From contig JABDLF010000002.1 of NCBI GenBank assembly GCA_013003115.1, forward strand, positions 68,186 through 132,185: a stretch of 64,000 nucleotides of DNA, given 5' to 3'. The notes under the pieces are model-generated. The model made no database searches. It was not told where the DNA came from and was given only the letters and a program-made list of their open reading frames with translations. The DNA is from Gammaproteobacteria bacterium (GTDB lineage: Bacteria > Pseudomonadota > Gammaproteobacteria > Steroidobacterales > JABDLF01). Shown here piece after piece: positions 1,618 through 51,724 of the stretch; the first letter of the stretch is position 1, and every line of letters begins with the position of its first letter. A program made the translations under genes and the position numbers.

Positions 1618-2673
1618 ATGAACTGCCACCGGCTATCATCCCTCATCGCCATTGCAACGGCTGTGCTTGCAGCACTCGTTTTGACGCCGCCCGCCAATGC
1701 TCACGGCAGCGTCACACCGGAAGAAGACCTTTGCCTGATTCGCATTGGCTACTACTCGGCCCACTTCAAGGTTTACCTGCCCGGGAAGCATGGGCACAAA
1801 CAGTTTTGTGAGGACCTGCCCGCTACGGGTGAAAGTATCTTTGTGATGGAATACGAGCACAGCGGCCTCGGAAACGTGCCCATCGATTTCCGGATTATTC
1901 GAAACATCACGGGGCAGGGTCGCTTTACGCAACTCAGGCATGTCAATGCCATCGCAGACCTTGATGCCCACACCGTCTATCGCCTGCCCCCGACAATTCA
2001 GCCTGATGTCTTCACCGCTATGTATACCTTTGACGAGCGCGGCAACTTTGTCGGCATCGTCACCGTAAAAGAACCGGTAACGGGGCAGGCGCTGACTGCC
2101 GTGTTCCCGTTTGCGGTAGGCTTCACAGGATTTGGCTACTGGCCACTGCTTGTGCTCGCAATCGTGTTATTGCAGCTCAATTATCTTTGGATGAGTGGCT
2201 GGTTCCAGGCGCGCAGCTGGCGCGCTTTTGCGCCAAAACGTCTGATGCCTGCGGTTGCCTTCCTGAGTCTCGTTCTTCTGATGCCGGCGCCTGCGATCAA
2301 ATCGGCAAGCGCCGCAGGCATCGACCAGCGTGCAAACATTGCTGAGAAAGTCTGGACGTCTGCGAACGGCCATTACAAAGTAAAGGTGGATCCGCAGTTA
2401 AACCCCCTCACAATCAATCGCATGCACAGCTGGACTCTGGAGCTTCGTACGGCACAGGGAGACCCGGTTGAGAATGCAAAAATATCAGTGACCGGCGGCA
2501 TGCCCGCCCACGACCACGGTCTGCCAACCCGGGCCCGCGTCACCCGCCATCTTGGCAACGGGCGCTATTTGTTGGAGGGATTGCGATTTCACATGCACGG
2601 ATCCTGGACGATTAAGTTAAGCATCGACAATGGCGAAATGCGTGACGAAGCGCTGATCGAGTTCACCCTTTGA
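1618..2673 (+). CDS. Exported membrane protein with C-terminal FixH/YtkA-like domain
   Basis: 351 aa. A signal peptide is clear (residues 1 to about 28, ending PANA-HG), followed by a beta-rich domain that probably faces the periplasm. Two hydrophobic segments follow (about 172-192 and 210-230). The C-terminal about 110 residues resemble the FixH/YtkA fold, an immunoglobulin-like domain, and include a His-rich stretch GGMPAHDHGLPT. FixH/YtkA-like domains often accompany copper or cytochrome functions, but no specific role is shown here. The stop codon overlaps the TTG start of the di-heme peroxidase gene, so the two are probably co-translated and may act together on a periplasmic redox or metal task. 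I do not recognise the N-terminal domain. Confidence 0.7.
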   Translation: MNCHRLSSLIAIATAVLAALVLTPPANAHGSVTPEEDLCLIRIGYYSAHFKVYLPGKHGHKQFCEDLPATGESIFVMEYEHSGLGNVPIDFRIIRNITGQGRFTQLRHVNAIADLDAHTVYRLPPTIQPDVFTAMYTFDERGNFVGIVTVKEPVTGQALTAVFPFAVGFTGFGYWPLLVLAIVLLQLNYLWMSGWFQARSWRAFAPKRLMPAVAFLSLVLLMPAPAIKSASAAGIDQRANIAEKVWTSANGHYKVKVDPQLNPLTINRMHSWTLELRTAQGDPVENAKISVTGGMPAHDHGLPTRARVTRHLGNGRYLLEGLRFHMHGSWTIKLSIDNGEMRDEALIEFTL

Positions 2674-3968
2674 GCAGCACCGGCAAAGCCTCTTTACGAT
2701 TTATTTCGATAGTTGTTGTTCTGTTCATGTTCGTTGCGGCCTGGATCGCGCGCCAGCAAATCATCGCGACAACACCGTGGTCGGATGCCGAGCTTGCTTT
2801 GCTGAGAAGCCTCGCCCTCGACGCACTGCCTCCGCCGCCGCCTTCGCCGGGTAACGCTGTAGCTGACGATGCGCGGGCCGTAGAGTTTGGCCGGCGGCTT
2901 TTCTTCGACCCGCGGCTGAGCGCAAACGGCCAGATCTCCTGCAGCACCTGCCACCAGCCCGTCAAAAACTTCACGGACGGCCTGAAAAAGGCGCGCGCCC
3001 TCGGTGTGTCCCAGCGCAACACCCGCAGTATTGCGGCTGCCGCTTACAGTCCCTGGCAGTACGCCGATGGACGCAGGGACAGCCTGTGGTCCCAGGCACT
3101 CGCGCCCCTGGAAGACCCTGCGGAACACGGTGGAACCCGCATGCAGTACGCGCGCTTCATCGCGACAGAACCCGTTTACAGGAAAATCTACGAAGGCATC
3201 TTCGGTGACCTGTCGGATTTCAGTGACCGCTCACGCTTTCCGGATATGGCCGCGCCCTCCCCCGATCCCGCAGCGCACAAAGCCTGGGCGGGCATGTCCG
3301 CCGAAGACCGTCGTACCGTCAATCGCGTTTTCTCCAACCTGGGAAAGGCCCTGGCTGCGTTTGAGCGCACCCAGCTGCCCGGGGCATCGCCCTTTGACTA
3401 CTACGTCGCTTCCCTTAGTAAATTGGGCAACAACGAACAAAAAGATCAGGACATCTTCGGTGCCCGGGAGATAGCCGGCCTTCGGCTTTTCATCGGCAAA
3501 GCACAATGCATCGACTGTCACAACGGCCCGCTCTTCACGAATAATGAGTTTCATAACACGGGCGCACTCCCCTATCCCGGCGACCTGCCGGATCGCGGAC
3601 GGGCCCAGGGCCTTCGCGAAGCACGCACCGATGAGTTCAATTGCCTTGGTGAATACAGTGATGATTCAAAAAACGGCTGTCCCGAACTGCGCTTCGCCCG
3701 TGACGACGCCACCATTATTGGCGCCATGCGTACGCCCTCGCTGCGCAACATCGCCGACACAGCGCCCTATATGCACAAGGGGCAGATCAAATCACTGTTT
3801 GAAGTTATCGATCACTACCGCCGAGCGGAGCCCGCCATCATTGGCCACAATGAGGCCAAGCCCCTGGCGCTCAGCCGCCGCGAGCGCAACCAGCTGTTTG
3901 CCTTTATGAAAACGCTGTCCGGCCCGCTGCCCGGCCAGGCGCCGCAGAACTCTTCGGGGAAGCCCTGA
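2670..3968 (+). CDS. Di-heme cytochrome c peroxidase / MauG-family protein
   Basis: 432 aa. One N-terminal hydrophobic segment (about residues 10-27) would act as anchor or signal. Two c-type heme motifs are present, Cys91-Ser-Thr-Cys94-His95 and Cys280-Ile-Asp-Cys283-His284, in the spacing of bacterial di-heme peroxidases. The segment TAPYMHKGQIKSL near residue 370 carries the Met typical of cytochrome c peroxidases, where MauG has Tyr. Members reduce hydrogen peroxide or oxidise protein or small-molecule targets in the periplasm. The TTG start overlaps the preceding stop by 4 bases (TTGA), which implies translational coupling. The family is certain; peroxide as the real substrate is an inference. 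Confidence 0.85.
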   Translation: MSSTGKASLRFISIVVVLFMFVAAWIARQQIIATTPWSDAELALLRSLALDALPPPPPSPGNAVADDARAVEFGRRLFFDPRLSANGQISCSTCHQPVKNFTDGLKKARALGVSQRNTRSIAAAAYSPWQYADGRRDSLWSQALAPLEDPAEHGGTRMQYARFIATEPVYRKIYEGIFGDLSDFSDRSRFPDMAAPSPDPAAHKAWAGMSAEDRRTVNRVFSNLGKALAAFERTQLPGASPFDYYVASLSKLGNNEQKDQDIFGAREIAGLRLFIGKAQCIDCHNGPLFTNNEFHNTGALPYPGDLPDRGRAQGLREARTDEFNCLGEYSDDSKNGCPELRFARDDATIIGAMRTPSLRNIADTAPYMHKGQIKSLFEVIDHYRRAEPAIIGHNEAKPLALSRRERNQLFAFMKTLSGPLPGQAPQNSSGKP

Positions 3969-46215: not shown

Positions 46216-49092
46216 TTATTTAAGCCGACCGTGGCACTGCTTGAATTTTTTGCCCGATCCGCACGGACACGGTTCGTTCCTGCCAATCTTGCGCTCAGTG
46301 CGCACAAACGGCTGAGCCTGTTCAGTCGCCTGCCGAGGCGCCGGCGCTGAGGCCGTCATACTCGGAGCCGCCGCATGTCTGGCCTCGCCCGGACGAGCCG
46401 AGCGGCGCTGCTTCTCGACGGCCTCGACATCCTCTTCGCTGCGAATCTGCACTTTCGAAAGAATGCTGATCGTGTCGTGTCGCGCACGATCGAGCATGGC
46501 AACAAACATTTCGAAGGCCTCGCGCTTGTACTCCTGCTTGGGATTTTTCTGAGCGTAGCTGCGAAGATTTATCCCCTGCCTCAGATAGTCCATGGCGGCG
46601 AGATGCTCTTTCCAGTGCATGTCCAGCTGCTGCAGCATGACTGCTTTCTCGAAATGACGCATGGTCGGCGCGCCGATCATTTCGACTTTGTCCTGGTAGG
46701 CTTTTTGAAGCAGCGCCTGAATCCTGCTGCGGAGTGATTCCTCGTGCAGCGAATCGTCGGCATCGAGCCACGCCTGAATATCCGCCTCGAGACCAAACTC
46801 TCTTTCCAGTGCCTGGCTGAGCCCGGCGACATCCCAGAGTTCTTCGACGCTTCCTCGAGGAATGTATTCATCGATCAACGCGTCAGCCGTCTCTGCACGG
46901 TCTTCTTCAACCCATTCGGAGACGTCATCTTCCGTCATTAACTGATTGCGTTTCAGGTATACGACCTTGCGCTGATCGTTGGCCACATCGTCGTATTCGA
47001 GCAGATTCTTGCGCATATCGAAGTTATGCGCCTCGACTTTGCGCTGCGCGCGCTCTATCTGCCTGCTGAGCAGATTACTTTCTATGGCTTCGCCGGACTT
47101 CATGCCCACCCGGGCAAGCAGCGCCTTGGAACGCTCCGGGTCGCCAAATATCCGCATCAGCGAGTCTTCCATGGACAGATAGAAACGGCTCGACCCGGGA
47201 TCACCCTGCCGGCCGGAGCGCCCGCGCAGCTGGTTATCGATGCGCCTGGACTCATGCCGCTCCGTACCGATGATATGCAGCCCGCCCGCGGCTAGCACTT
47301 CTGCGTGGCGCGCTTCCCACTCGCTGCGTATGGTCTGACGCTTCGCTTCGTCATCGTCAGCGACTTTTGCAAGCTCGGCATCGAGACTGCCACCTAGCAC
47401 AATGTCGGTACCACGGCCCGCCATGTTGGTCGCTATAGTGACCCGCCCTGGCCGCCCGGCCTGGGCCACAATTTCCGCCTCTCGCTCGTGCTGCTTCGCG
47501 TTCAGAACCTCGTGCGAGATGTTGCGCTTCTTGAGGACACCGGACAGCAGTTCGGAAGTCTCGATGGAAGTTGTGCCCACGAGCACCGGCTGGCCGCGCG
47601 TGACGCAGTCTTTTATGTCATCAATGATGTTCTTGTACTTGTCCTCGGCGGTCAGGTGAACGAGGTCAGCGCGGTCGTCGCGAACCATGGGCCTGTGCGT
47701 CGGGATCACCACGACCTCAAGGCCGTAAATCGTCTGAAACTCGTAGGCTTCCGTATCGGCGGTACCGGTCATACCAGAGAGCTTCTCGTACATGCGGAAG
47801 TAGTTCTGGAACGTGATCGACGCGAGCGTCTGATTCTCGCTGCGCACCGCCACACCCTCTTTCGCCTCTACCGCCTGGTGCAAGCCGTCCGACCAGCGCC
47901 GGCCCGGCATCGTTCGCCCGGTAAACTCATCCACGATTACAACTTCGCCGTCCTTGACTATGTATTCCACGTCGCGCTTGTACAGCACCTGGGCACGCAG
48001 GGCGGCGTTGAGGTGATGCATGAGACTTATATTGGCAGCATCATAGAGCGTGTCATCATGGCCAATGAGTCCGGTCTCTTTGAGTATCTTCTCTACCCTT
48101 TCCTGGCCTTCCTCGGAAAGATGCACCTGCTTGGATTTTTCGTCAGCAGTGAAGTCTGCGGGCTCGACCAGACGTGCAACCGGCGCCTCGCCCTCTTCGC
48201 CTGTCAGCACCAGGTCTTTATCGAGATCGGCCGCCCGCGCGCGTGCCGCGCCGATCGCCATTACCTCCCCGCTTGATGCTTTTTCATCGCGCAGCTCGAC
48301 TTTGTCCGCCTCAATGTCTTCGTTTCGCGGAGCGCCCGGAAACTTGTCGGCGCGCAGCTGCGGAGTGATGGCATTCATCTTCTCGTACAGCTCTGTGCTG
48401 TCTTCCGAAGGCCCGGAGATGATCAGCGGTGTGCGGGCCTCGTCGATCAGAATAGAGTCGACTTCATCGATAATCGCGAAGGACAGTTCCCGCTGTGCCT
48501 TGTCGTCTGCGCGGAACGCCAGATTGTCGCGCAGGTAATCAAAACCAAACTCGTTGTTGGTGCCATACACGATATCCGACGCATAAGCTGCTCGCTTTTC
48601 CGCGGGCTCGAGACCCGCTTTGATCACGCCTACCGTCATACCGAGAAAACGATAGATCGGCCCCATCCAGTCGGCGTCGCGCTGCGCCAGGTAGTCGTTA
48701 ACCGTGACAATATGCACACTCCCACCGGACAGCGCATTGAGATAGGCCGCCAGTGTCGCAACCAGGGTCTTGCCTTCGCCGGTGCGCATTTCAGCAATCT
48801 TGCCCTGGTGCAGGGCGATGCCGCCGACGAGCTGTACGTCAAAGTGACGCATTCCGAGCGTACGAACCGACGCCTCGCGCACCGCCGCAAAGGCGTCCGG
48901 CAGCAAATCGTCCAGGCTTTCACCATCCGCGAACCTTTTCCGCAACGTCTCGGTTCTTGCGCGCATCTCGTCGTCGCTGAGTCCCTTCAGGGAATCTTCG
49001 ATATCGTTTGCGCGTGCGACCTGCTTTGCGTACTTGCGCAGCAGCCTCTGGTTACGGCTGCCAAAAATGCTGGCAAGAAATTTTTGCACCAT
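46216..49092 (-). CDS. secA: Preprotein translocase ATPase SecA
   Basis: 958 aa from the ATG at 49092. The open frame runs on upstream, but [20 protein letters not shown] is the family N-terminus. Walker A is [11 protein letters not shown] and the DEAD-type box is [16 protein letters not shown]. The C-terminus ends with the SecB- and zinc-binding motif [18 protein letters not shown]. It drives protein export through SecYEG. The upstream leader contains a TATAAT box and a stable hairpin. E. coli places secM in this leader; no secM-like gene is seen here. Confidence 0.97.
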
Positions 49093-49126: not shown

Positions 49127-49168
49127 AAGGCGGCCCTCAGGGACCGCCTTGAAAAAACGGGCATTATA
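49127..49168 (-). promoter_or_regulatory. secA -10 box and leader hairpin
   Basis: The minus strand has a perfect TATAAT (49168-49163), and no good -35. About 12 bases after it comes TTTTTT and then an imperfect stem AAGGCGGTCC/GGGCCGCCTT around CTGA (49150-49127), followed by TTTGTG. The secA ATG lies about 35 bases further. The hairpin may modulate secA expression, but this is inferred from structure only. Confidence 0.45.
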
Positions 49169-50201: not shown

Positions 50202-50310
50202 AAACCTACTGACTCGCTGCCCTTGGGCACCCCATCCGTTCGAATTTTTTTTCGCCGGTCAGTCTGGTGACGCAGCGCCCCGAGGCACCGCCACGACCCT
50301 AAAGTCGGGC

Positions 50311-50410
50311 CGACTCGCTGCGGTAACCCCGCTGTCCCTGACTCAAAAGCCCTGGATCGGTGGCTTTGCGTCCCCGCCTCACGGAGGGTTTGCCTTGAAT
50401 TCACAGGTCG
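50311..50410 (-). promoter_or_regulatory. Cyclic-di-GMP-I (GEMM) riboswitch in the leader of the M23 gene
   Basis: Read on the minus strand, the sequence has GGCAAACC (50394-50387), a stem-loop with a GTGA tetraloop, GGGACGCAAAGCC, a variable second hairpin, and AGCGGGGTTACCG (about 50333-50321). These are the conserved GEMM-I aptamer elements in order and spacing, as in the Vibrio cholerae Vc2 aptamer. CGAC/GTCG could close the outer stem. The aptamer ends about 110 bases before the M23 ATG. No terminator with a U-run follows, so control may act on translation or on another structure. Confidence 0.85.
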
Positions 50411-50472
50411 ATCATGATGCATCAAGGCACCCGCCATGATCAAGAACTTAACGAATTAAGTAGCATCCGCCG

Positions 50473-50784
50473 ATGTCAGAAACGCCAAAACCCGCCAAAT
50501 TGGCCGAATTGCTCGCCTCCGGAGGTCAGAATCTGGGGCGCCTGCTTGCGCGAACCCGCGACCTCGAGGCCCTCACGGGCAAGGTTCGGGCCGCTCTGCC
50601 GGCACCGGACGCCGACCATGTGGTCGCAGTAAGCGCCAGCGGGCACGAGTTGGTGGTCACGGTGGATTCGGCGGCCTGGGCGGCGCGCCTGCGATTCAGT
50701 GAGCCGGCAATCCGGGCTGCCGTCGGTCAGTCGGCCGAAGACAGGAAACTGGTGGTCAGGGTTCGACAGCCGGCCGTGCCGTAA
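50473..50784 (+). CDS. dciA: DciA family protein (DUF721), replicative helicase loader
   Basis: 103 aa. DUF721/DciA proteins recruit the replicative helicase DnaB to the origin in bacteria that lack DnaC. Visible are an N-terminal helical part (LAELLASGGQNLGRLLARTR), a hydrophobic core strand (ELVVTVDSAAWAARLRFSEP) and a short tail. It is divergent from the M23 gene and converges on lpxC, the same place as in Pseudomonas. The family name is secure; the role is by analogy. Confidence 0.82.
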   Translation: MSETPKPAKLAELLASGGQNLGRLLARTRDLEALTGKVRAALPAPDADHVVAVSASGHELVVTVDSAAWAARLRFSEPAIRAAVGQSAEDRKLVVRVRQPAVP

Positions 50785-50812: not shown

Positions 50813-51724
50813 TCAGGCAGCGACGACCGGGCTGGTGTAGGACACCGGGGCAACCTGAGAATCAGCAAAGCTGACAACCTCAAAAGCGCTTTCCGTAGCA
50901 AGTAGCTTTCGCAGCAAGGCATTGTTGAGACCGTGCCCGGACTTGAAAGCGCGAAACTCTCCAATCAGCGTATGCCCTACAAGATAAAGGTCTCCGATTG
51001 CGTCGAGCATTTTGTGTTTGACGAACTCGTCTTCGTAGCGCAAGCCGTCGTCGTTCAAGACACGAAAATCGTCGAGGACGATCGCGTTGTCCATCGTGCC
51101 ACCCAATGCAAGATTGTTTGATCGCATCATCTCGAGATCGCGCGTGAATCCAAAGGTGCGCGCACGGCTGACTTCTTTCAGGTAAGCGGTTGTTGAAAAG
51201 TCCATGATCGCGGACTGGGAGTGACGCTTGAATACCGGGTGATCAAACTCGATCTCAAAATCGAGTCGGAATCCCTCATGCGGCAGCAGTTCTGCCCACT
51301 TGTCGCCGTCCTCCACCCGAATGGTCTCGCGGATGCGCAGAAACTTCTTTGCCGCCTTCTGCTCCTCAATCCCGGCAGACTGCAGCAGAAACACAAAGGG
51401 CCCGGCGCTACCGTCCATAATCGGCACCTCGGCGGCACTGACATCGACGTAGGCGTTGTCAATTCCGAGGCCTGCGAATGCGGACATCAGGTGCTCTATG
51501 GTTGAGACTTTCGCCTCCCCCGCCTCGATGACCGTGCCGAGCATCGTCTGTCCGACACTGAGCGCCGTCGCCGGAATATCCACCGGGGGATCAAGATCCA
51601 CGCGCCTGAATATTATTCCCGAATCAGGCGCCGCGGGCCGCAGGGTCATGAAGACCTTGTCGCCGGTGTGCAGGCCTATACCCGTCGCCCTGATTGAATT
51701 TTTTAATGTTCTTTGTCTGAGCAT
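50813..51724 (-). CDS. lpxC: UDP-3-O-acyl-N-acetylglucosamine deacetylase LpxC
   Basis: 303 aa, normal length. It catalyses the committed step of lipid A synthesis and uses zinc. Zinc ligands lie in [20 protein letters not shown] (His) and [14 protein letters not shown] (His and Asp), and the catalytic His is in FKSGHGLNN. It follows ftsZ, as usual at the end of the dcw cluster. The 246-base gap between lpxC and ftsZ contains no gene I can support; it probably carries the lpxC promoter. Confidence 0.96.

Follow-up and report, generated by a model that had tools for sequence, protein, structure and literature searches.

The M23/LytM gene that lies between dciA and secA in a gammaproteobacterial genome raises the question of whether a cyclic-dinucleotide riboswitch can be attached to a cell-wall gene at this locus and, if so, which ligand it would sense and which step of expression it would control. 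The window analysed here, a stretch of 64,000 nucleotides, belongs to a 2.17-Mb draft genome that is 82% complete. In the first-pass annotation of this DNA, a GEMM-I aptamer had been placed at 50311-50410 on the strength of three motifs and a GNRA-type loop in the first hairpin, ahead of an M23 gene said to be set between dciA and secA; an Infernal search with RF01051 and a survey of the leader in related genomes had been proposed as checks. The three motifs are present in the order claimed, and Pfam matches confirm the setting of the gene, with the aptamer in the divergent dciA/M23 gap and on the strand of the M23 gene (Table 1). Further past lpxC, ftsZ, ftsA, ftsQ and ddl-like ORFs were identified by reading. 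The palindrome ACTTAAcgaaTTAAGT, near the dciA side of the gap, has one match in the window, against 0.03 expected.

Table 1. Features of the dciA–M23–secA region, in window coordinates
Feature	Position	Strand	Basis or remark
c-di-GMP-I (GEMM-I) riboswitch aptamer, G20 type, GUGA first loop	50319-50404	-	RF01051, order-specific model, fold, covariation
Expression platform / rest of 5' leader, 117 nt from aptamer to ATG	50202-50318	-	mechanism inferred
M23/LytM gene, 308 aa	49275-50201	-	PF01551
dciA, divergent neighbour	50473-50784	+	PF05258, 44.1 bits
lpxC, beyond dciA	50813-51724	-	PF03331
secA, downstream of M23 gene	46216-49092	-	PF07517 and others
Perfect palindrome ACTTAAcgaaTTAAGT, possible operator	50446-50461		between dciA and putative -35
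Putative leader promoter: TTGATC (50443-50438), 18 nt, CATCAT (50419-50414)	50414-50443	-	by-eye alignment with leaders of relatives

When cmscan was run with Rfam 15 on the whole window, RF01051 (c-di-GMP-I, GEMM-I) was matched over its full length and untruncated (model positions 1-87 of 87) with 63.6 bits (E 4.2e-10; gathering cut-off 35 bits), within a few bases of the limits first claimed, and the only other matches above cut-off were two tRNAs. A covariance model specific to the order (R1), built from 33 aptamers of the order, gives the window aptamer 70.6 bits. No conserved core position is disrupted; the first hairpin ends in a GUGA loop, which is of the GNRA type that had been supposed, and the minimum-free-energy structure of the isolated 86 nt consists of the GEMM-I helices. 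The folding energy of these 86 nt does not improve on that of shuffled sequences (z 0.00), so that the case for the aptamer rests on the covariance model and on conservation.

The order compared consists mostly of marine gammaproteobacteria and includes the Woeseiaceae. Among 59 of its genomes, the source genome included, 44 harbor a GEMM-I element somewhere and 53 have an ortholog of the M23 gene; in 32 of these 53, the order-specific model finds the aptamer directly upstream of the ortholog. The source genome as a whole contains four GEMM-I elements only, and this scarcity, together with the same placement in 32 genomes of the order, argues that the position in the window is not due to chance. 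The aptamer is also present at 35 of the best 80 named M23 loci, many of them labelled Woeseiaceae. At nearly all aptamer-bearing loci on a long enough contig, secA is kept together with lpxC or dciA, the aptamer usually lies 100-125 nt from the start codon, and the M23 proteins are about 46-59% identical to that of the window. In families that lack the aptamer, the start of dciA can be ~30-50 nt from that of the M23 gene by tblastn coordinates, versus ~270 nt in the window. A paralog of the M23 gene in the same genome (50% identity; G000:C68, L159) was considered as a second copy of the locus and rejected, as secA, lpxC and dciA are not nearby. In the class sample of 274 genomes, 143 of other orders have an M23 ortholog, and a comparison of coordinates, with few candidates scored per genome, placed a listed GEMM-I beside the ortholog in none of them; a direct search of the M23 loci of Cellvibrionaceae, Microbulbifer, Ectothiorhodospira and others detected no aptamer either. 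Judged by sequence model and conservation, the leader of the lpxC–secA M23/LytM gene is the carrier of a genuine c-di-GMP-I riboswitch. We regard as highly probable the explanation as a whole, namely that the switch is genuine, that it binds c-di-GMP and that binding alters translation of the M23 gene or survival of its transcript.

The pattern of substitutions was followed in 57 M23-linked aptamers, a set in which kinship inflates covariation and loop–receptor statistics. Standard pairs occupy 94.2% of the pair cells, versus 34-46% when the partners are slid, and double-changed cells number 89 versus 38 in shuffles, with a covariation score of 0.280 versus 0.155 (shuffled) and at most 0.079 (slid). 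The loop of the first hairpin varies with its receptor, which lies in the second hairpin: the canonical receptor accompanies 43 of 45 GAAA loops but 4 of 12 other loops, the remaining 8 of these 12 having a non-canonical one (Fisher p 1e-5, uncorrected for kinship). The window belongs to the second group, combining its GUGA loop with a changed receptor as L053, L106 and L147 do, and the loop change occurs in several families. This matched change of loop and receptor looks like the product of selection; docking of the GNRA loop into its receptor is a prediction.

The presence of the switch was mapped onto a tree of 124 M23 proteins, whose deep branches are weakly supported. It requires 8 changes, whereas shuffled labels need 41 on average. 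With few exceptions the carriers cluster in a single, loosely supported part of the tree, and the window lineage branches off near the base of that part. The simplest account would be one early gain followed by several losses, but the weak support of the deep branches means that the switch may have been gained more than once. At L036:2524-2606 (same genome as L068), a degenerate aptamer of 18 bits occupies the orthologous place, apparently a riboswitch in decay and a loss in progress. It could be argued that the window aptamer has gone the same way, being a decayed or non-regulating copy kept by descent and without effect on the M23 gene: its 70.6 bits lie below those of most orthologous copies, decay is seen in the relative just mentioned, and in C. 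difficile not every c-di-GMP riboswitch is functional (PMC6366702). This is quite improbable, however, as the conserved core is intact, a non-GAAA loop paired with a changed receptor is also seen in other families, and the host lineage has itself diverged (M23 identity <60%).

The genuine switch that is favored here would be expected to have a ligand that can be predicted. For this purpose the Vc2 numbering, including G20 and the ligand-pairing C, is taken by us to be transferable to the window aptamer. At the Vc2 G20 position, the window (AAGGCAAACC) and 50 other M23-linked copies carry G; the conserved ligand-contacting A and C are present, and all 57 M23-linked aptamers have the C that is read as ligand-pairing. 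Since G20 is kept, c-di-GMP is the predicted ligand; the source genome has 21 GGDEF domains. One sister family departs from this rule. In f9, all five M23-linked aptamers (L035:1305-1387, L038:2526-2608, L040:1305-1387, L041:1305-1387 and L047:1305-1387) have A20, whereas a further 15 GEMM-I elements examined in these genomes have G20, and this contrast points to an altered ligand or affinity at the M23 gene only; 3',3'-cGAMP or a relaxed specificity is a possible outcome. The aptamer of L158 has C at this position. As a GEMM study has assigned to the G20-equivalent position a role in selecting between cyclic dinucleotides (PMC9262584), the f9 copies also lend some weight to the idea that the window aptamer is real but senses a different or broader dinucleotide (3',3'-cGAMP or a mixture) instead of c-di-GMP. 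This is very improbable for the window, where the A that marks cGAMP-selective GEMM-I aptamers is replaced by the G found in the other 50 copies. The cGAMP-selective aptamers of Geobacter have their fold in common with the window and share the A20 change with the f9 copies, but the latter lie in Gammaproteobacteria, and cGAMP is only a possible ligand for them. With c-di-GMP kept as the predicted ligand in the window, a broader history can be sketched, in which control of the lpxC–secA LytM factor by a cyclic-dinucleotide riboswitch arose early in the order, was kept by most families, ties c-di-GMP to peptidoglycan growth or division, and had its ligand shifted by one family at this switch alone; we offer it tentatively and hold it, in this full form, to be possible but doubtful.

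The mechanism has to be sought between the promoter and the start codon. In Woeseiaceae, a very constant promoter-like sequence (TTGTAA-N17-CATATT) ends a few bases before the aptamer, so that the M23 message should begin with the aptamer. The putative TTGATC/CATCAT promoter of the window occupies the same position; it is a weak match that a consensus scan of the window does not recover. Other leaders show additional elements: those of several Woeseiaceae (L058, L107, L072, L053 and others) have GTGA-N6-TCAC palindromes, CRP/Clp-like, upstream of the promoter and ~61 nt ahead of the point where the M23 leader is predicted to start, which suggests a second, protein-based input there, and no such palindrome is seen in the window. 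TATACT/TATAAT-like boxes follow just after the aptamer in L043, L066, L067 and L051 (families f3/f6), where a second promoter bypassing the switch is possible.

An intrinsic terminator was considered as the expression platform and rejected, because the window has no standard one between aptamer and ATG and because the matches of a loose test, positive in 21 of 53 leaders, differ in position between genomes, many being inside the coding start. Across the same number of leaders (53), anti-aptamer pairing shows no conserved excess over shuffles (mean z -0.38), the window alone exceeding them (z -2.0), and modelled accessibility of the start site with versus without the aptamer gives no consistent ON or OFF direction. 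RNAalifold finds no more than a small structure in the Woeseiaceae platform, refined to a four-pair hairpin at the start codon that masks the purine-rich stretch just before the ATG (90% of pairs formed, versus 26-54% when slid). This hairpin favours translational control in that family; it is not evident in the window. Control of M23 translation is the most likely function that we can assign to the switch. The current model would start transcription, most likely, a few bases upstream of the aptamer, so that the M23 mRNA would have the aptamer at its 5' end. The diguanylate cyclases of the cell would supply c-di-GMP, which would bind the aptamer and refold the leader between it and the ATG (roughly 117 nt). 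Translation of the M23 gene (or survival of its transcript) would change as a result, and the c-di-GMP level would in this way determine how much is present of an inner-membrane LytM factor that faces the peptidoglycan. Ligand binding, the start site and translational rather than terminator control are steps that we infer.

It has also to be considered that M23 translation might not be the main point of action of the switch, which might for instance give a short leader RNA through termination or govern read-through into secA. The switch is oriented in the direction in which both M23 and secA are transcribed, and the terminator-like patterns of the loose test could be read in that sense, but the lack of a standard terminator in the window and the scattered places of those matches speak against it, as does the lack of operon evidence for M23-secA; we consider it improbable. 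Cells normally require SecA throughout, which makes its strict control by c-di-GMP unlikely, and we found no evidence tying the switch to secA itself. Between M23 and secA, reading of the window sequence reveals a GGCGGTCC/GGGCCGCC hairpin followed by TTT (49129-49148) and, near it, TATAAT at 49163-49168; secA may have its own promoter here.

The product of the M23 gene, on whose translation the switch most likely acts, has, on reading of its sequence, a hydrophobic N-terminal segment and a middle part that is likely a coiled coil, followed by the M23/LytM domain at residues 206-300 (PF01551, 111 bits, 2.5e-32). The Zn-ligand positions H207, D211 and H288 are each conserved in 124 of 124 homologs, in which H255 is invariant as well. 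The HxH motif reads NxH in the window, its first His being replaced by N286; among the 124 homologs this position is H in 61, N in 59 and S in 4, and the switch is found with both H and N forms of the protein. The first His of HxH is important for catalysis in LytM and lysostaphin, and its replacement makes peptidase activity uncertain, so that the window protein may have weak or non-standard peptidase activity, or may instead regulate other hydrolases. Of the possible link from c-di-GMP to a cell-wall gene at an unusual locus, as first proposed, the link itself has been strengthened by conservation, while the part concerning peptidoglycan remodelling has become less certain on account of N286. 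Matches to the NCBIfam equivalogs MepM, ShyA, EnvC, NlpD and DipM are far below their cut-offs; in the PDB, M23 peptidases and ShyA are the top-ranking relatives, and EnvC and the Vibrio TagE protein follow lower in the ranking.

Motility, adhesion, pilus, virulence and polysaccharide degradation are among the GEMM targets named in reviews and surveys. In the source genome, one further copy (L172:2098-2183) precedes a DUF4382 lipoprotein-like gene (938-1921) and another (L171:7640-7722) has no obvious same-strand gene downstream; in family f9, L197:1612-1696 lies before a PilM-like ORF (2017-3078) and opposite a PBP1A-like ORF (genes assigned by reading), and similar aptamers occur in L185, L187, L190 and L198. 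V. cholerae Vc2 and Vc1 (RF01051) share with the window the full-length model match, the conserved core, G20, a GNRA loop with its receptor and the position in a 5' leader, but the window has a GUGA loop and a non-canonical receptor, and its target is the lpxC–secA M23/LytM gene, whereas switches of the Vc2/Vc1 type serve motility, pilus, adhesion, chitin-related and c-di-GMP turnover genes. Two other systems connect c-di-GMP with M23 proteins in different ways. EagA of Erwinia amylovora, of MepM type, is likewise an M23 cell-wall protein through which c-di-GMP acts; unlike the window protein it combines LysM with M23 and sits at the znu locus with a Zur box, and the parts of the source consulted describe no riboswitch before the gene (PMC7705223). 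In Sinorhizobium meliloti, RgsM is a membrane-anchored LytM/M23 protein tied to a c-di-GMP enzyme, RgsP, but according to the sections consulted the link is between proteins, the essential function is independent of c-di-GMP and no riboswitch is described (PMC6107284). In the open-licence literature searched for c-di-GMP riboswitches with M23, secA or peptidoglycan, the present target is undescribed, which is weak evidence of absence; the class is known, and its order-wide target here is apparently unreported.

The genes best known to be served by c-di-GMP riboswitches are those for surface functions, motility and pili, and many GEMM targets have no assigned function. Retention of the switch at one LytM gene of a division and envelope locus, through much of the history of the order, would mean that the protein level set by c-di-GMP matters, and suggests a little-noticed link from c-di-GMP to cell-wall upkeep. 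The A20 copies would allow the evolution of cyclic-dinucleotide specificity to be followed in nature while the gene stays the same, and the locus itself would provide a direct, testable handle on how sessile/motile signalling may reach the cell wall in Woeseiaceae and their relatives.
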